NCBI GenBank assembly: GCA_003599365.1
Contig: QZJR01000024.1
Span: forward strand, 1-32,165
DNA from: Deltaproteobacteria bacterium
GTDB lineage: Bacteria; Desulfobacterota; UBA8473
DNA length: 32,165 nucleotides
Direction: 5' to 3'
The notes under the pieces: model-generated
Databases searched by the model: none
Told to the model about the DNA's origin: nothing
Seen by the model: the letters and a program-made list of their open reading frames with translations, nothing else
Shown here: one piece after another, positions 13,005 to 22,310 of the stretch
Layout of the letters: each line of letters starts with the position of its first letter
Numbering within the stretch: position 1 is the first letter of the stretch
Position numbers and translations under genes: made by a program

Positions 13005-13133
13005 CGGGTTTCCTTTTCTGTGTAAGAATATTAGTAATATGAGCGTTATTTGCTTTTTGGATTAAGCCACATTTGTCTTTCTTTGTCAAGGTGATGCAGC
13101 CTCAATTTTTAAGTACTTGGAAGATTTTAACTT

Positions 13134-13147
13134 CAAGTTGCAAGTTG
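13134..13147. repeat. Short tandem heptad CAAGTTG x2
   Basis: CAAGTTGCAAGTTG in the intergenic region at the left edge of the island. Confidence 0.5.
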
Positions 13148-13220
13148 TGGTGTTTATGTGGTAAAGTACAGGAAAGTATGGAATAAGTTGTTATACGATA
13201 GCGTTTAAAAGAATTATGCA

Positions 13221-14639
13221 ATGAAATTTCAAATACTTCCGAAAGATAAATGCCCCTGTGGCTCTGGAAATGAATACAGGAAATGCCATTCTCCTAAGAG
13301 AGATAGATCTGACAATAATATGTGGAAGGGGCCTGGATACAAACAGGTTATCTATTTTGGGGATAAAAAAACTGTCAGTGGGTTTCACTTTGATAAAGCT
13401 AAAAGGGGAGAGTTTAAACTTCTTAGAGATGATGACAGAATCCCTTTACCTAGATTTTTCTGTGTAGATGATTCTATTTTAGAATGCAAAGCTATTGTCA
13501 GATACCTATCTATTTCAGTTGAGAACAATACTATTAAGTTTGTTGGCTCAGTGGGTATAAATTGCAATTTGCAATCAGAAATCCCAATTTTAATTGGCTG
13601 CTCCGATATCAATTCGATTAAGAAATTTGAGGCAAACTTTGCAGGAAAACCCATTTCTTATGAAAGAGGAGTATGGAGCATTTATATAGGAGAGGATGAA
13701 AACCCTATCGCCCGTATTAAAAAGCAGCCACAGTGGTTTCGTTACTTGTATGCCTCTGGATATTTAGTTGAGGCGGAGGCAACTGGGGAAATAAACTTTA
13801 GTCTATATGCTAATATAAAAGGTTTTAACCTTTTTACCTTAGCCATGCCTTTTGGTGAAATAGAAATTCCACACCCACAGATTTCTGTCCTAGACCATCA
13901 AACTACATGTCAATTTGAGATCGAAAAGGAAAGAGTGTCTTGGGACCTTATATTACATCAAGATATTTTCAGCGAAAAGAAAAGAGCAAGAAAAGACTCG
14001 AGATTATTCCTTGGTTTTAAAAAGGACGAAGGCGTTGATTTTGAAGATTTCGATGAAAGTGTTCGAAAGCATTTTTTAAACCCAATAAAATTGCGTATTG
14101 GCGTATCGACCCCCGATTTGAGCACTATCATTGGAAAATTCAATGAAATTCTTGATAGAACAATCCGGACAATTTCAGAGGACGGGGGATTCCTATTCGA
14201 GGAAACATCAAATCGAATTCTTGAAGCAGATTTCAGAGATTATGTGCTGACAGTACTAAAAAGCTCTGGCTATTATGCCATTGCCGAACCCTCAAGGAGA
14301 GGAGGGTTTATAGATATTCTGTTAAAAAAAGGTGAATCAGAAAGCATAATCGAGTTTAAAGTATGGGGCCGACGTAAATATAAAGAAGTCATAAAACAGG
14401 TTCTTGACTATGGAACACCTTGGACAACCGAATATGCGACGGTGATAATAAATCCTAACAAAGGTTCAATACTCGATAAATTTGTGGATAATGCAAGGAA
14501 AGCCCCGGGATTCAAATACATTAGCGATGAAAATCAAGACCCAACAGCCCTCCAGAAATTAACCAGTAGTCATTATTTAACGAAATGGGATAGGCATATA
14601 GTAGTAAGTCACCTCATTATAAATACGACAATGTTGTGA
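13221..14639 (+). CDS. SEC-C motif protein with C-terminal PD-(D/E)XK-like nuclease domain
   Basis: 472 aa; N-terminal DKCPCGSGNEYRKCH; C-terminal FRDYVLTVLKSSGYYAIAEPSRRGGFIDILLKKGESESIIEFKVWGRRKYKEVIKQVLDY (D...ExK...Q). Confidence 0.75.
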   Translation: MKFQILPKDKCPCGSGNEYRKCHSPKRDRSDNNMWKGPGYKQVIYFGDKKTVSGFHFDKAKRGEFKLLRDDDRIPLPRFFCVDDSILECKAIVRYLSISVENNTIKFVGSVGINCNLQSEIPILIGCSDINSIKKFEANFAGKPISYERGVWSIYIGEDENPIARIKKQPQWFRYLYASGYLVEAEATGEINFSLYANIKGFNLFTLAMPFGEIEIPHPQISVLDHQTTCQFEIEKERVSWDLILHQDIFSEKKRARKDSRLFLGFKKDEGVDFEDFDESVRKHFLNPIKLRIGVSTPDLSTIIGKFNEILDRTIRTISEDGGFLFEETSNRILEADFRDYVLTVLKSSGYYAIAEPSRRGGFIDILLKKGESESIIEFKVWGRRKYKEVIKQVLDYGTPWTTEYATVIINPNKGSILDKFVDNARKAPGFKYISDENQDPTALQKLTSSHYLTKWDRHIVVSHLIINTTML

Positions 14640-14685
14640 TTTTTATCTTTAAATATCGGTAAATCGTATAATCATGTACTGAATG

Positions 14686-14730
14686 CCGGCTGGGATTTAG
14701 CTGGTGCTCACCCCCAGCCGGTCAGCACCA
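14686..14730. other. Interleaved inverted repeats (pseudoknot or mutually exclusive hairpin topology)
   Basis: CCGGCTGGG 14686-14694 / CCCAGCCGG 14713-14721 and TGGTGCT 14702-14708 / AGCACCA 14724-14730. Confidence 0.75.
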
Positions 14731-14807
14731 CGTTATATGCAAAGAAAGATGATCGAGTGTCCGTGTACTCGCAAAATAGAGACCTAATTTATAAAAGGGA
14801 TTGATAC

Positions 14808-16283
14808 ATGACCAAAAAAGAGCTTGAAGACTATCTCTGGGGTGCAGCCAATATTTTACGCGGAATGATTGATGCCGCCGACTTTAAGCAGTATATTTTC
14901 CCTTTGCTGTTTTTTAAGCGCATCAGCGATGTATGGGATGAGGAATATCAAACAGCGTTGAATGAAAGCGGAAACGATCTCGACTACGCCTTGTTCCGTG
15001 AAAACCACAGGTTTCAGATACCAAAGGGCTGCCATTGGGAAGATGTGCGAAAGAAAACCGTTGATGTTGGAGCTGCCCTTCAAAAAGCTATCAGCGGTAT
15101 TGAAAAAGCCAACTTTGAAATGCTGCATGATGTTTTCGGCGATGCACAGTGGACGAATAAGCGCCGGATGAGTGATGAGAAAATGCTCGACCTTATTGAG
15201 CATTTCAGCCGGATGAATTTAACGGTCAGTAATGTCCCTCACGACGTCATGGGTGAAGGCTACGAATACCTGATTAAAAAATTTGCAGATGACAGCGGAC
15301 ATACCGCAGCCGAGTTTTATACGAACCGCACAGTCGTAAAACTCATGACCCAGATTACCGACCCTCAAAGCGGTGAAAGCATCTATGACCCTACCTGCGG
15401 AAGCGGCGGTATTTTGCTCTCAAGCGTGCTGCACCTAAAAGAACGAGGCAAGGAATACCGTAATTTAAAGTTATACGGACAGGAGCTGAATCTGATTACA
15501 TCCGCCATTGCCCGTATCAATATGTTTATGCATAATGTGGATGGGTTTCTGATAGTTCAGGGTGATACACTTGATAATCCTCAAATACTGGAAAATGATG
15601 AACTCAAGCAGTTTGATGTAATAATGGCAAATCCGCCATACAGTGTAAAGCGCTGGAATCAGAAAAAATGGATGAACGACCCTTTTGGAAGAAACATCTG
15701 GGGTACGCCACCTCAAGGTTGTGCTGATTATGCTTTTCAACAGCATATTATGAAAAGTCTAAGACCAAATACCGGTAGAAGCGTGGTTCTCTGGCCTCAC
15801 GGCGTATTGTTTAGAGATGCGGAAAGCAATATACGCAAACGCATGATTGAAGAAGATTATGTGGATGCGGTAATTGGCTTGGGCAAAAACCTTTTCTACA
15901 ACAGCAGCATGGAAAGCTGCCTGCTGGTTTGCAGAATGAATAAGCCGAAAGAGAGAAAAGGCAAAATCATATTTATTGATGCCAAAGAAGAATTGCGGAT
16001 TGAAAGAACAAATGCCTGGCTGGAGCCGCCGCATATTAAAAAGATTGCTGATGCCTATTGGAAATTTAAAGATGACGAAGGTTTTGCCAAAGTAATGAAC
16101 AATACGGAAGTGTTGGAAAACTACGGGAACCTGAGCTTACAACTCTATGTAAAACAGGCAAACAACTCCATTGAACACGATACTGGTAAACTGATTGAGG
16201 ATATTAAAGCAGGGCAGAAACAGATCAGTGCTTCGCTTGAAAATTTATTTACTGAACTAAAAAATATTGGAATTGAGGTATGA
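14808..16283 (+). CDS. hsdM: Type I restriction-modification system DNA methyltransferase subunit
   Basis: 491 aa; AEFYTNRTVVKLM, YDPTCGSGGILL and catalytic MANPPYS. Confidence 0.96.
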   Translation: MTKKELEDYLWGAANILRGMIDAADFKQYIFPLLFFKRISDVWDEEYQTALNESGNDLDYALFRENHRFQIPKGCHWEDVRKKTVDVGAALQKAISGIEKANFEMLHDVFGDAQWTNKRRMSDEKMLDLIEHFSRMNLTVSNVPHDVMGEGYEYLIKKFADDSGHTAAEFYTNRTVVKLMTQITDPQSGESIYDPTCGSGGILLSSVLHLKERGKEYRNLKLYGQELNLITSAIARINMFMHNVDGFLIVQGDTLDNPQILENDELKQFDVIMANPPYSVKRWNQKKWMNDPFGRNIWGTPPQGCADYAFQQHIMKSLRPNTGRSVVLWPHGVLFRDAESNIRKRMIEEDYVDAVIGLGKNLFYNSSMESCLLVCRMNKPKERKGKIIFIDAKEELRIERTNAWLEPPHIKKIADAYWKFKDDEGFAKVMNNTEVLENYGNLSLQLYVKQANNSIEHDTGKLIEDIKAGQKQISASLENLFTELKNIGIEV

Positions 16284-17296
16284 CTAAGGAAATAGTCCCA
16301 AGTAATCTATATTTAAAAATTGCCGAACTTTTACAAACTGCAAGGCAAACAGTAATACGTACTGTAAATCAAACAATGGTTTACACCTATTATGAAATTG
16401 GGAGGATGATTGTAGAGGATGAACAGCAAGGGAAAGAGAGGGCCGAATATGGCAAGCAGGTATTAGAAGATTTATCCCAAAAATTGACACAAAATTTTGG
16501 TAAAGGATTTTCTGTAGTTAATTTACGACAAATGCGAGCTTTTTATCTAACTTACTCAATTCAGCAGACGGTTTCTGCTGAATTACAAGCACCTCGTTTT
16601 CAATTATCCTGGTCGCATTATCTTAAACTGATGCGGATTGAAAACCACGATGAGCGAAGTTTTTATGAAATAGAATGTGTTACAAACAATTGGTCGCTTA
16701 AAGAATTGCAACGACAATTTGACACCGCTTTATATGAACGATTGGCTTTGAGTAGGGATAAAAAGGGCATTAAACAATTGGCACAGCAGGGGCATCTTAT
16801 TGAAAAACCTTCCGATGCAATAAAGGATCCTTATATTTTAGAGTTTCTTGGTTTGCCCGAACATCACCATTATTCTGAAACCGTATTAGAACAGGAAATT
16901 TTCGACAAATTAGAGCATTTTTTACTCGAACTCGGTAAGGGCTTTACTTTTGTCGGAAGACAGGTTCGTTTTACTTTTGATGAAAAACATTTTCATGTTG
17001 ATCTGGTGTTTTATAACAGACTTTTAAAGTGCTTTGTTCTGATAGATTTGAAAATTGGTGAGCTTAGTCATCAGGATCTTGGTCAGATGCAGATGTATGT
17101 CAATTACTATGACCGTTTTGTAAAACTCCCCGACGAAAATAAAACCGTAGGTATTGTACTTTGCCGCGACAAAAACGAAACCCTTGTTGAAATTACTCTG
17201 CCGGAAGATAATGACCAGATCTTTGCCAGCCGCTACCGGACAGTATTGCCGGACAAACAAGCGTTTATTGAGCTTTTGAATGAGAGTGAAGCATGA
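16280..17296 (+). CDS. YhcG/DUF1016 family PD-(D/E)XK nuclease domain protein
   Basis: 338 aa; DUF1016 N-terminal YYEIGRMIVEDEQQGKERAEYGKQVLEDLSQKL; C-terminal HVDLVFYNRLLKCFVLIDLKIG...Q.QMYVNYYD; ATGA overlaps with hsdM and hsdS. Confidence 0.92.
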   Translation: MTKEIVPSNLYLKIAELLQTARQTVIRTVNQTMVYTYYEIGRMIVEDEQQGKERAEYGKQVLEDLSQKLTQNFGKGFSVVNLRQMRAFYLTYSIQQTVSAELQAPRFQLSWSHYLKLMRIENHDERSFYEIECVTNNWSLKELQRQFDTALYERLALSRDKKGIKQLAQQGHLIEKPSDAIKDPYILEFLGLPEHHHYSETVLEQEIFDKLEHFLLELGKGFTFVGRQVRFTFDEKHFHVDLVFYNRLLKCFVLIDLKIGELSHQDLGQMQMYVNYYDRFVKLPDENKTVGIVLCRDKNETLVEITLPEDNDQIFASRYRTVLPDKQAFIELLNESEA

Positions 17297-18441
17297 AGTT
17301 GAGAAAGGATAAATGGGGAAAGGTTAAATTTGAACAACTATGTTTCAATATTTCTGAAAGGGTAGAACCCAATAATACTTCCCTTGATAAATATATCGGC
17401 CTTGAACATTTAGATTCAGGGAAAATTAAGATTGATAGATTTGGGCAACCAGATGAGGTGATTGGAACAAAATTAAAAAGTTACAAAGGCGATATTATAT
17501 TTGGAAAACGAAGGGCGTATCAAAGAAAAGCAGCAGTTGCAGACTTTGATGCTATTTGTTCAGCACACTCAATGGTTTTAAGAGCCAATGAACAAAATAT
17601 AAATAGGCATTATTTTTTACATTTTATACACTCTGATTTGTTTATGAATAGGGCTGTTGAAATCTCAGAAGGGTCTTTGTCTCCAACTATAAAATGGAAG
17701 ACATTAGCAGCTCAAAAATTTCCCCTTCCCCCTCTCGAAGAGCAAAAACAAATCGCCGCTCTTTTTCAATCCATAGAAACCGCTATCGAACGGGTTGAGG
17801 GGCAGGAGAAGAATTTGTTGAAGTTGAAAAATCAACTACTTCGTGAACTGTTTGGTGAGATGCTACAATTTGGCAACTATCTGAATAGAAATGATTTTGA
17901 GAAAATTAAGTTTGAAAAGATTGCGTTAAACATTTCTGAAAGAGTAGAGCCCCAAAAGACAACCCTGGATACTTATGTCGGATTGGAACATCTAGACCCT
18001 GATAGTCTTGTTGTTGCAAGAACAGGGAAACCGGGTGATGTAATCGGCACAAAATTAAAAATCTATAAAGGCGATATCATATTTGGGAAACGTAGAGCCT
18101 ATCAGCGCAAAGTTGCTGTTTCACATTTTGATGGAATTGCATCTGCCCATAGTATGATTTTAAGAGCCAATGAAAAACACATTGAAAAAGAGTTTCTTCC
18201 TTATTTTATGCAATCGGATGTTTTTATGAACAGAGCCGTTCAAATTTCTGAAGGCTCTCTATCGCCAACAATCAAATGGAAGACATTAGCATCACAAGAG
18301 TTTTATTTGCCCAAGAAAGAAAAACAAAAGGAATTAACCAAAGTGTTTAAACAATTTGGTACTACACGGGACCAACTCAAGCATCAAAAAACCACGCTCA
18401 AAAATCTGAAGCAAAAACTATTAAGCGATATTTTAGGGTAG
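17293..18441 (+). CDS. hsdS: Type I restriction-modification specificity subunit with two near-identical TRDs
   Basis: 382 aa; two copies of NISERVEP...GTKLK.YKGDIIFGKRRAYQRK...ISEGSLSPTIKWKTLA. Confidence 0.94.
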   Translation: MKLRKDKWGKVKFEQLCFNISERVEPNNTSLDKYIGLEHLDSGKIKIDRFGQPDEVIGTKLKSYKGDIIFGKRRAYQRKAAVADFDAICSAHSMVLRANEQNINRHYFLHFIHSDLFMNRAVEISEGSLSPTIKWKTLAAQKFPLPPLEEQKQIAALFQSIETAIERVEGQEKNLLKLKNQLLRELFGEMLQFGNYLNRNDFEKIKFEKIALNISERVEPQKTTLDTYVGLEHLDPDSLVVARTGKPGDVIGTKLKIYKGDIIFGKRRAYQRKVAVSHFDGIASAHSMILRANEKHIEKEFLPYFMQSDVFMNRAVQISEGSLSPTIKWKTLASQEFYLPKKEKQKELTKVFKQFGTTRDQLKHQKTTLKNLKQKLLSDILG

Positions 18442-18537: not shown

Positions 18538-21516
18538 ATGGCATTTAACGAGCTTAACAGCATAGAATATTTCATCATCCGCCAGCTTACCGGCATTAAT
18601 CTGAATCAGGTTCAGCATGGCATGGTAAAGGAAGATGCTGCGTCTTATGGCGATGATCCAAAATGGGAATATGTCCAGCCTGAATTGCTTTCGAGAGATA
18701 TTACCGATGTTCTTCTGGAAAAGGAATTAAAAGAATCTCTGATCCGTCTCAATCCCGCAATAAAATCAAACCCCGAACGCGCTGAAGAAGTAATACACAA
18801 ACTTCGCGCTATTCTGATTACTGTCGGCAATGTTGGTCTTGTGCGCGCTAATGAAGAATTTGCCAAATGGTTACGGGGAGAAATCTCCATGCCTATCGGT
18901 AAAAACAATGAACATGTAAATATTCGTCTGATAGACTTTGAAAAAATAGCTAACAACTCTTTTTTACTGACAAATCAATTCAAAATCAGAGCCAGAGAGA
19001 CAAAAATTCCCGATATCGTTATGTTTGTAAATGGGATTCCTCTTGTTGTAGGCGAAACGAAAACCCCTGTCAGACCTGCTGTAAGCTGGCTGGATGGCGC
19101 GCATGATATTCATGTCATTTATGAAAATGCTGTGCCCCAACTTTTTGTTCCCAATGTGTTTTCTTTTGCGACTGAAGGAAAAGAGCTTTTCATTGGCGGA
19201 GTGAGAACACCATTAGAATTCTGGTCACCATGGCGGCTTGAGGATGAAAAGGATGAACTGCATCATTTTGCCGGCTTACAGGACATAAAAAAACAGATGA
19301 CGCACTTATTAAAGCCTTCTACATTATTAGATATTTTGCAGTATTTTACGGTGTATGCAACAAACAGCAAAAAGAAAAAGATAAAGCTCGTCTGCCGATA
19401 CCAGCAATATGAAGGCGTCAATGCCATTGTTGAACGGGTTAAAGAAGGCAAAATAAAGAAAGGTTTAATCTGGCATTTTCAGGGGTCGGGTAAATCGTTG
19501 TTAATGCTGTTTGCCGCTCAAAAAATGCGTAAGCAACAGGAGCTTGGGAATCCCACTGTCATTATAATGGTTGACAGAGTTGATCTCGACACGCAAATAA
19601 CAGCAACTTTTAATACTGCCGAAGTTCCGAATATGGTGACAACCGACAATATTAAAGAACTGCATGACCTCCTGGGAAAAGATGCCAGAAAAATCATCAT
19701 TACCATGATTCATAAATTTAAAGATGCCTATCCCGACATGAACAAGCGTAAAAATATCATTGTGATGGTGGACGAAGCGCACAGAACACAGGAAGGTGAT
19801 CTCGGCCGCAAGATGCGAAGCGCTTTGCCCAATGCATTTTTATTCGGTTTAACCGGAACACCTATCAATAAAGCCGATAAAAACACATTCTGGGCATTTG
19901 GAGCCGACTCGGATAAAAGCGGATACCTGAGCCGATATACCTTTCAGGATAGTATTCGTGATAACGCCACACTGCCTTTGCATTTTGAACCGCGCTTGCC
20001 GGATTACCACATTGATAAAGAAAGCCTCGATATTGCTTTTAAAGAGATGGCAAATGACCTTAGCGAAGAAGACCGTAACAAACTCAGCCAGAAAGCCGCT
20101 AAAATGGCGGTATTTTTAAAATCTCCGGAACGAGTGAAAACCATAGTTCAAGATATAGTGGAGCATTTTCAAAAGCACGTGGAGCCGGAAGGTTTTAAAG
20201 CCTTGATTGTAACCCCTGACCGCTATGCCTGTGTCCAGTATAAAGAGGAGTTGGACAAACTGCTTTCACCCGAATCCAGCATCGTTGTTATGAGCACTTC
20301 TGCCAATGATGATCTGGAGTTCAAGCAAAACTTTGCACTGGACAGAGACCAGCAGGAAAAGGTAATTGAAAGATACAATGATTCAAATTCGCCGCTTAAA
20401 TTCCTTATTGTTACTGCAAAGCTGCTGACCGGTTTTGATTCGCCCATTTTACAAACAATGTATCTGGATAAATCGCTTAAAGACCATACGCTGCTGCAGG
20501 CAATTTGCCGCACAAACCGCCTCTTTCCGAATAAAACATTCGGACGGATTGTCGATTACTTTGGTGTCTTTGATGATACAGCAAGCGCCCTGGCATTTGA
20601 TGAAGAATCTGTAAAAAAGGTTATCAGTAATCTTCAAGAGCTGAAAGACAAACTCCCTGAACAAATGACACTTTGCTTATCTCATTTTGAGGGTTTAGAC
20701 AGAACAATAGAAGGTTTTGAAGGTTTGCAAGCAGCACAGGATTGCATAGGTTCAGATGAAAAGCGAGATGCCTTCGCAAAGGATTTTAGTTTATTGTCAA
20801 AACTATGGGAAGCCCTTTCACCGGATGATGTATTAAAGAACTATCAAAAGGATTATAAATGGCTTTCACAGGTTTATACCTCGGTTAAACCGGGTTCCGA
20901 TGATAACGGAAGGTTATTATGGCATGCATTGGGAGCACAGACTACGGCTCTTATCCATGAGCATATTCATGTTGCCGGCATTAACCACGATATGGAAGAG
21001 ATGGTTTTAGACGCCGATGTAATTGACAACTTAATGAGTAAAAAAGACCCTAAAGATGCAGATAAGATTGTAAAAATATTGTCAGGCAGGCTGGGTAAAA
21101 ATAAAGGCAATCCGATTTTTAGAAAGTTAAGTGAAAGGCTTGAAGCACTGAGAGACAAGGCTGAAAAAGGGTTAATCAATAGCATCGAATTTATTAAACA
21201 GCTTTGTGAAATCGCAAGAGAAACCTTGCAGGCTGAGAAGCAGAAGGGTAACGGTGAACAGCAAAAATCAGCAAAAGCGGCATTAACGGAGTTGTTTCTT
21301 GAACTTAAAACAGATAAAACACCGGCAATAGTTGAAAGAATAGTAAATGACATTGATGAGATTGTTCGTTTAGTCCGCTTTGACGGTTGGCAAAATACCA
21401 TTCCCGGTGAAAGAGAGGTTCAAAAATCTTTACGCAAGACATTGTTGAAATATCAATTGCACAAAGATGAAGAGCTGTTTAATAAATCGTATGAGTATAT
21501 TAAAGAATATTATTGA
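18538..21516 (+). CDS. hsdR: Type I restriction-modification endonuclease/translocase subunit
   Basis: 992 aa; nuclease PDIVMFVNGIPLVVGETKTP, Walker A FQGSGKSLLM, VDEAHRTQ, LTGTPINK. Confidence 0.96.
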   Translation: MAFNELNSIEYFIIRQLTGINLNQVQHGMVKEDAASYGDDPKWEYVQPELLSRDITDVLLEKELKESLIRLNPAIKSNPERAEEVIHKLRAILITVGNVGLVRANEEFAKWLRGEISMPIGKNNEHVNIRLIDFEKIANNSFLLTNQFKIRARETKIPDIVMFVNGIPLVVGETKTPVRPAVSWLDGAHDIHVIYENAVPQLFVPNVFSFATEGKELFIGGVRTPLEFWSPWRLEDEKDELHHFAGLQDIKKQMTHLLKPSTLLDILQYFTVYATNSKKKKIKLVCRYQQYEGVNAIVERVKEGKIKKGLIWHFQGSGKSLLMLFAAQKMRKQQELGNPTVIIMVDRVDLDTQITATFNTAEVPNMVTTDNIKELHDLLGKDARKIIITMIHKFKDAYPDMNKRKNIIVMVDEAHRTQEGDLGRKMRSALPNAFLFGLTGTPINKADKNTFWAFGADSDKSGYLSRYTFQDSIRDNATLPLHFEPRLPDYHIDKESLDIAFKEMANDLSEEDRNKLSQKAAKMAVFLKSPERVKTIVQDIVEHFQKHVEPEGFKALIVTPDRYACVQYKEELDKLLSPESSIVVMSTSANDDLEFKQNFALDRDQQEKVIERYNDSNSPLKFLIVTAKLLTGFDSPILQTMYLDKSLKDHTLLQAICRTNRLFPNKTFGRIVDYFGVFDDTASALAFDEESVKKVISNLQELKDKLPEQMTLCLSHFEGLDRTIEGFEGLQAAQDCIGSDEKRDAFAKDFSLLSKLWEALSPDDVLKNYQKDYKWLSQVYTSVKPGSDDNGRLLWHALGAQTTALIHEHIHVAGINHDMEEMVLDADVIDNLMSKKDPKDADKIVKILSGRLGKNKGNPIFRKLSERLEALRDKAEKGLINSIEFIKQLCEIARETLQAEKQKGNGEQQKSAKAALTELFLELKTDKTPAIVERIVNDIDEIVRLVRFDGWQNTIPGEREVQKSLRKTLLKYQLHKDEELFNKSYEYIKEYY

Positions 21517-21746
21517 ATCAAACTAATCGTCCGTATTTTTTGGGGAAACTAAAGAGTGAGTATGTTTAGGGGCTACCTGCCCGTTGAGCCTGTGGAAAAA
21601 CCCCTGGATTTCTCCAATAATTGCTTTACCAGACGGCAGATTTATGTTACTATCACCGCAATAATATGAGGTCAACCCGTTTAACCTTGATTACCCCCTG
21701 AATCAAATTAATAACCCTAAAAAATCCGCGCTGATAGAAAACTAAT

Positions 21747-21786: not shown

Positions 21787-22062
21787 TCAATAAACATCAT
21801 CATGATGCCCGACAGTTACCGGTACTATTTCCTTGTCATTGAAGTAAAATTCAAGCGTAATTCGGTAGGAGATATTGATGGAGACAGAGTATAAATCTTT
21901 CAATTTACCTTTCAACGGATGCAATCTTAAAGAGGGATGGTGGGGATTGATTTCCAATATTTTGAGAGTCTTTTCGTACTGAGTAAGCAATTCAGGGTGT
22001 TCTTTTACAAACCGTTTTGCTTTTTTAGTATAGCTGTCAGTATAAATCAGCTTATATTTCAT
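21787..22062 (-). CDS. RelE/YafQ-like toxin of a type II TA system
   Basis: 91 aa; HHPSLRLHPLKGKLKDLYSVSINISYRITLEFYFNDKEIVPVTVGHHDDVY. Confidence 0.88.
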   Translation of the reverse strand: MKYKLIYTDSYTKKAKRFVKEHPELLTQYEKTLKILEINPHHPSLRLHPLKGKLKDLYSVSINISYRITLEFYFNDKEIVPVTVGHHDDVY

Positions 22063-22310
22063 TTTGTTATCCGCTGAATGTGTTTTTCAACACTTTCGGT
22101 AACAAATTTTCCATTTTGATAATCTGCCCTTGTTTCATGCAATGCAGCGTCAAGCTCGCATTCACGTAGATAATTGTATTGCTGTATATCCATAATGACA
22201 TATTTTTCTTTTCCGCGTACGGTAATGACCAATTCGTTATCATCGGCTAATTTGCTCTCAATTACAGATACGCCTTTGGTTTTCAATTGGTTGGCAGTAA
22301 TAGTGTTCAT
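22059..22310 (-). CDS. Phd/YefM-like antitoxin
   Basis: 83 aa; MNTITANQLKTKGVSVIESKLADDNELVITVRGKEKYVIMDIQQYNYLRE; ATGA overlap with the toxin gene. Confidence 0.85.
   Translation of the reverse strand: MNTITANQLKTKGVSVIESKLADDNELVITVRGKEKYVIMDIQQYNYLRECELDAALHETRADYQNGKFVTESVEKHIQRITK

Follow-up and report, generated by a model that had tools for sequence, protein, structure and literature searches.

The window (the whole 32,165-nucleotide stretch of deltaproteobacterial DNA analysed here) contains an open reading frame encoding a 472-residue protein, which lies between a TIGR03960 radical-SAM gene and a type I restriction-modification operon. The relevant features, all on the forward strand, are as follows.

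13005 to 13190, forward strand: conserved chromosomal stretch that separates the TIGR03960 gene from the cassette and forms the left flank of an insertion hotspot (84-87% identical in the sister species G075, G039 and G137)
13191 to 14732, forward strand: highly probable integron gene cassette of 1542 bp, from TTATACGA through the gene and attC up to the G of R' (homology boundaries, same-genus flanks)
13221 to 14639, forward strand: coding sequence, 472 aa, for a SEC-C / unassigned middle / predicted PD-(D/E)XK protein (ORF list, profile matches, homologs)
13245 to 13295, forward strand: SEC-C zinc-knuckle motif, residues 9-25, with C11, C13, C22 and H23 (PF02810)
13353 to 14195, forward strand: middle region, residues about 45-325, or about 280 residues (lacking a match in Pfam, PHROG and PDB sequences)
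14223 to 14510, forward strand: predicted PD-(D/E)XK nuclease domain, residues about 335-430, with E335, D365, E378, K380 and Q393 (PF08011, invariant residues)
14665 to 14740, forward strand: attC with R'' CGTATAAT at 14665-14672 paired to R' GTTATAT at 14732-14738, and an extended imperfect stem (folding, shuffles)
14808 to 16283, forward strand: hsdM, the type I restriction-modification methylase, outside the cassette (N6_Mtase, HsdM_N; hsdM model)
16280 to 17296, forward strand: DUF1016/YhcG PD-(D/E)XK protein within the hsd operon (PF06250, PF17761; PDC-S02)
17293 to 18441, forward strand: hsdS specificity subunit (PF01420)
18538 to 21516, forward strand: hsdR restriction subunit (HSDR_N, SWI2_SNF2; TIGR00348)

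The ORF retains its start ATG in homologs and encodes a protein with recognisable signatures at both ends. The N-terminal segment (CPCGSGNEYRKCH, ligand spacing CxCx8CH) matches PF02810 over residues 9-25 with an E-value of 8e-4 and 19.7 bits, 0.7 bit below the cut-off of 20.4, while the best homolog gives an E-value of 3.8e-5; the best PDB matches of this segment are weak ones to SecA zinc-domain chains. Residues 335-399 match PF08011 (PDDEXK_9) with an E-value of 2e-6 and 28.2 bits, above the curated cut-off of 25.5, and this match is present in all four sequences of the family, in which E335, D365, E378-x-K380 and Q393 are invariant. The first-pass annotation had proposed both an N-terminal SEC-C motif and a C-terminus with the residue order of PD-(D/E)XK nucleases, and had named conservation of these residues among homologs as a check; the two assignments are borne out at the level of profiles and motifs, and the conservation holds throughout the family (4/4). 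Its statement that the middle could not be assigned to a family also stands, since neither Pfam, nor the PHROGs, nor the sequences in the PDB contain a match to residues about 45-325; a beta-rich character of this region is seen only in a low-confidence model.

AlphaFold2 gave mean pLDDT values of 34.3 for the full-length protein and 46.5 for the C-terminal domain alone; the likely reason is that there are no more than four similar sequences. Both of these low-confidence models contain the helix-strand-strand-strand-helix order expected of the PD-(D/E)XK fold (H-E-E-E-H-E-H in the C-terminal model), and a Foldseek search with the C-terminal model returned nothing meaningful. The nuclease assignment therefore rests on sequence, from which a PD-(D/E)XK nuclease fold in the C-terminal domain is very highly probable. 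The product is most likely a zinc-knuckle PD-(D/E)XK nuclease, as predicted from its motifs, of a rare and undescribed family.

Relatives of the protein are few. A single scan of 84,980 species genomes, sensitive to close relatives only, revealed three, all in deltaproteobacterial metagenome-assembled genomes and with 70% (L002), 67% (L003) and 63% (L004) protein identity to the window; L004 is a contig-end fragment. No homologs were found in plasmids, phages or IMG/VR contigs, profile searches of about 300 to 400 genomes of the phylum gave no further family member, and the gene was not found in seven other genomes examined from the same class. Two weak matches (L005 and L006) were rejected as members, being SecA C-termini with SEC-C only. 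Comparison of L002 and L003 indicates purifying selection (dN 0.09, dS 0.57, dN/dS about 0.16), and the gene is therefore maintained. We conclude that it is rare and horizontally distributed.

The limits of the mobile unit emerge from comparison of the homologous loci at the DNA level. L002 and L003 lie on contigs that are otherwise unrelated. Their homology begins precisely at the integron crossover G^TT (GTTATACGA) and ends with the complementary R'' box (TCGTATAAC), beside hairpin sites. Integron integrases are known to cross over after the first base of GTTRRRY, separating G from TT (PMC8876359). Identity between L002 and L003 is 100% from the base after the G in GTTATACGATT, is about 85% on average across the gene, returns to 100% at CGTATAACAA and is random on both outer sides; homology between the window and L002 begins at 13190. 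In all three of these loci (window, L002 and L003) the cassette begins with TTATACGA, to which R'' TCGTATAA(C/T) is reverse-complementary; formation of attC in an excised circle needs this complementarity.

The window attC folds with -18.0 kcal/mol on the bottom strand and -15.0 kcal/mol on the top strand (z -4.3, with none of 500 shuffles as good), and none of 5000 shuffles of the intergenic stretch gave an equal site. Greater stability of the bottom strand is a property of real attC sites (PMC11023631). Weaker hairpins, with z about -2 to -3.7, adjoin L002 and L003 and likewise favour the bottom strand. A loose attC scan, which yields about 26 chance matches per window, was replaced by a fold-based scan with about two chance matches per 32 kb. 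Over the whole 32-kb window similarly strong attC-like matches arise in about 6% of shuffles, and the case for the site therefore depends in large part on where it lies, next to the gene, and on the limits of homology.

Several features sit less comfortably with a textbook cassette. The R'' of the window attC ends in AAT rather than AAC. Within the window no attC precedes the cassette and no consensus promoter was found in front of the gene; downstream of the L004 fragment there is no recognisable attC. The attC interior of the window is unrelated to those of L002 and L003, though the genes are homologous. The interiors at L002 (3499-3558) and L003 (2138-2208) are also unrelated to each other despite 85% identical genes, which is unusual; the hairpin interior may have been exchanged while the gene and R box were kept. 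The missing upstream attC and promoter, together with the oddities of L004 and of the attC interiors, weaken the argument for a cassette, yet the evidence from the boundaries stands, and we regard it as highly probable that the gene is an integron cassette.

The genome encodes a full integron integrase (G000:C57:674-1618, TIGR02249, 429-451 bits against a cut-off of 265). None is present on the contig of the window, and comparison of the hotspot flank with the regions around intI found no similarity. A genome-wide search with the exact pattern of the cassette's own R boxes (CGTATAAC...GTTATACG) revealed no array. A second tyrosine recombinase, which does not possess the integron-specific patch, is encoded on another contig (G000:C18, L026, 670-1650), near an attC-like hairpin (2437-2503) and small cassette-like ORFs.

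Sister species of the genus provide a view of the insertion point itself. Homology to the left flank ends at window positions 13191 (G075), 13186 (G039) and 13195 (G137), the same base within about 5 nt, and the window flank reads AATAAGTTG followed by TT at this point. G137 has a cassette-free site, reading AAATTG followed by TTCTAATCAAAAC (TTG followed by TTCTAATC). G039 carries a PIN-toxin cassette at the same site, which starts TTGGGC, has R'' GCCCAAC and its own attC, and this attC ends immediately before the same TTCTAATC (TTCTAATCAAG) as in G137. Not all junctions fit, since G075 has TTG followed by TC instead of TT and G108 diverges earlier. The site has therefore been used repeatedly by cassettes, though no integrase adjoins it.

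This hotspot (13190/13191 in the window; equivalents L049 in G075, L050 in G039 and L051 in G137) lies between the TIGR03960 radical-SAM and SUI1 genes, and each sister species has different, mostly defence-like cargo there, with cassettes entering at one base. G137 (L051) retains remnants of the hsdS and hsdR ends of the window at the same site, which suggests that an ancestor had the type I system at this place and that it was later deleted. A sequence of about 100 bp is found once in the window (21584-21688) and three times in G075, where the copies (L049 reverse strand 7642, 8506 and 9331) come behind consecutive modules of hotspot cargo. The island's right end (21787-22310) encodes a RelE/HigB-like toxin and a Phd/YefM-like antitoxin, which are conserved in G039.

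Cargo at the site or beside the homologs is mostly defence-like, comprising type I restriction-modification (window and L003), PrrC, PD-T7-4, GmrSD_N, DndB, HepT and PIN. For example, the relatives' hotspots hold GmrSD_N, a helicase-PLD protein, HepT/nucleotidyltransferase and DndB. The gene preceding the homolog in L003 encodes a PD-T7-4 homolog (E-value 1.8e-76) and is followed by a good attC, and the operon after the homolog has the order hsdR-hsdS-prrC-hsdM; its PrrC-type anticodon nuclease (L003:6581-7693) thus lies inside the type I operon that adjoins the homolog. L002 is flanked by NucS-like and HEPN-like genes, the HEPN match being weak. In the window the DUF1016/YhcG gene (16280-17296) overlaps hsdM and hsdS by 4 bases each. 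We also considered whether the hsd operon could be a cassette in its own right and dropped the idea, as no R'' matches its left end. Such neighbourhoods point to defence indirectly, and integron cassettes also carry toxins and metabolic genes. PD-T7-4 was identified by experimental selection for phage defence (PMC9519451), and about 10% of Vibrio cholerae cassettes proved anti-phage on testing (PMC12409362).

Taken jointly, these observations lead us to favour, with a probability of roughly 60%, a rare-family nuclease that works as a single-gene anti-phage system and moves in an integron cassette, here placed at a defence hotspot. The first-pass annotation had read the protein as a zinc-anchored nuclease whose middle domain could sense a partner or a ligand. 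The SEC-C and PD-(D/E)XK assignments within that reading stood, while its packaging as a mobile cassette, for which the support is strongest, had been missed; the ends of the cassette, its attC and the hotspot of insertion are additions of the present analysis.

Other functions for the same gene have to be weighed. It is conceivable, but unlikely, that the protein is a nuclease which behaves like a toxin or stabilises its cassette, and that it persists as a selfish element and plays no specific part against phages. Toxin-antitoxin cassettes are known to stabilise integron arrays and the PIN-toxin cassette of G039 occupies the very same site, but the 1542-bp cassette has no antitoxin-sized companion ORF on its coding strand, and a middle region that is long and conserved suggests that activation is regulated. 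A housekeeping or DNA-processing role outside conflict, such as repair or plasmid maintenance, is distinctly improbable: the PD-(D/E)XK fold serves repair as well as defence, but the distribution of the gene is very patchy (three relatives among 84,980 species and no copy in sister species), and both its mobility and its defence-rich neighbourhoods speak against such a role.

The position of the gene, directly upstream of and collinear with hsdM, could also indicate an accessory subunit of the adjacent restriction system, in effect a fifth gene of the hsd operon, and a type I system lies downstream of the homolog in L003 as well. This is very unlikely, because the attC and the cassette end separate the gene from hsdM, the L003 system has another gene order and other subunits, L002 has no adjoining restriction-modification genes, and G137 retains hsd remnants without the SEC-C/PD-(D/E)XK gene. 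Although attC sites are degenerate and even the fold-based scan gives its two or so chance matches, there is similarly little prospect that the hairpins and matching ends are coincidental and that the gene moved by another route, since three independent lines (homology boundaries, complementarity of R'' and cassette start, and same-genus insertion points) agree to the base and the genome encodes a full integron integrase.

For the favoured reading, an anti-phage nuclease in an integron cassette, we propose the following mechanism. The integron integrase would have inserted the single-gene cassette by G^TT crossover at the chromosomal defence-gene hotspot of the genus. The PD-(D/E)XK domain (D365, E378 and K380, with E335 and Q393) is predicted to cut nucleic acid using a divalent metal. 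The SEC-C knuckle, which would hold a single zinc, may dock the protein on a partner, which could be the ribosome, a chaperone or nucleic acid. The conserved middle region may sense infection through, for instance, a phage protein, a DNA end or a DNA modification, so that the protein would most likely act as a stand-alone anti-phage or anti-plasmid nuclease.

Recent work, mostly on Vibrio and on mobile integrons, has revealed integron cassettes as a reservoir of compact anti-phage genes. If our reading is correct, the locus extends this reservoir to an uncultured deltaproteobacterial lineage and supplies an undescribed predicted nuclease family in one 1.5-kb unit. One chromosomal base takes different, mostly defence-like cargo in sister species, which links integrons to the formation of defence islands. 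A bolder combination is offered only tentatively and is, taken as a whole, rather doubtful: that the site upstream of the radical-SAM gene is a standing cassette landing site which, with no integrase nearby, builds ordinary-looking defence islands; that the protein represents a new anti-phage class in which SEC-C and a recognition domain control a PD-(D/E)XK nuclease; and that attC interiors may be exchanged.

Among known systems, the protein shares the E, D, ExK, Q order of PDDEXK_9 (PF08011), but the match spans positions 3-77 of the 105 in the profile, and the SEC-C motif and the middle region are foreign to PF08011. The PADLOC candidate defence protein PDC-S54 (L016) is 37% identical over 90 nuclease-domain columns (probability 91) and has the D, E-x-K and Q at the same positions; against the whole 410-position profile only positions 265-376 match (E-value 4.9e-5), the remainder of the protein being unmatched. 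In contrast to the window protein, the L016 example does not contain SEC-C and pairs with a SIR2-like gene (the two genes lie at L016:302-1321 and 1459-2631). No Shedu (SduA) nuclease model occurs among the Pfam or PADLOC matches of the protein, and in profile comparisons neither YhcG nor the NucS-like neighbour in L002 matched the nuclease domain. SEC-C domains of the SecA/YchJ type (PF02810) have the same CxCx8CH ligands in a short terminal segment, whereas here the motif is N-terminal on a predicted nuclease; our literature search found no report of SEC-C nucleases in integrons.

With regard to its genomic setting, the locus resembles the attG insertions of Loot 2024, which, as cited in PMC11023631, likewise place cassettes at G^TT away from the integrase; the present case differs in that a single site has repeatedly served different cargo in several species of one genus. 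The anti-phage integron cassettes of Darracq 2025, Kieffer 2025 and Getz 2025, as reviewed in PMC12409362, similarly consist of a single compact gene with its attC and include restriction-like nucleases, as predicted here. Relative to those cassettes, the predicted nuclease of the window resides in a chromosomal hotspot rather than an integrase-adjacent array, and in an environmental deltaproteobacterial lineage.
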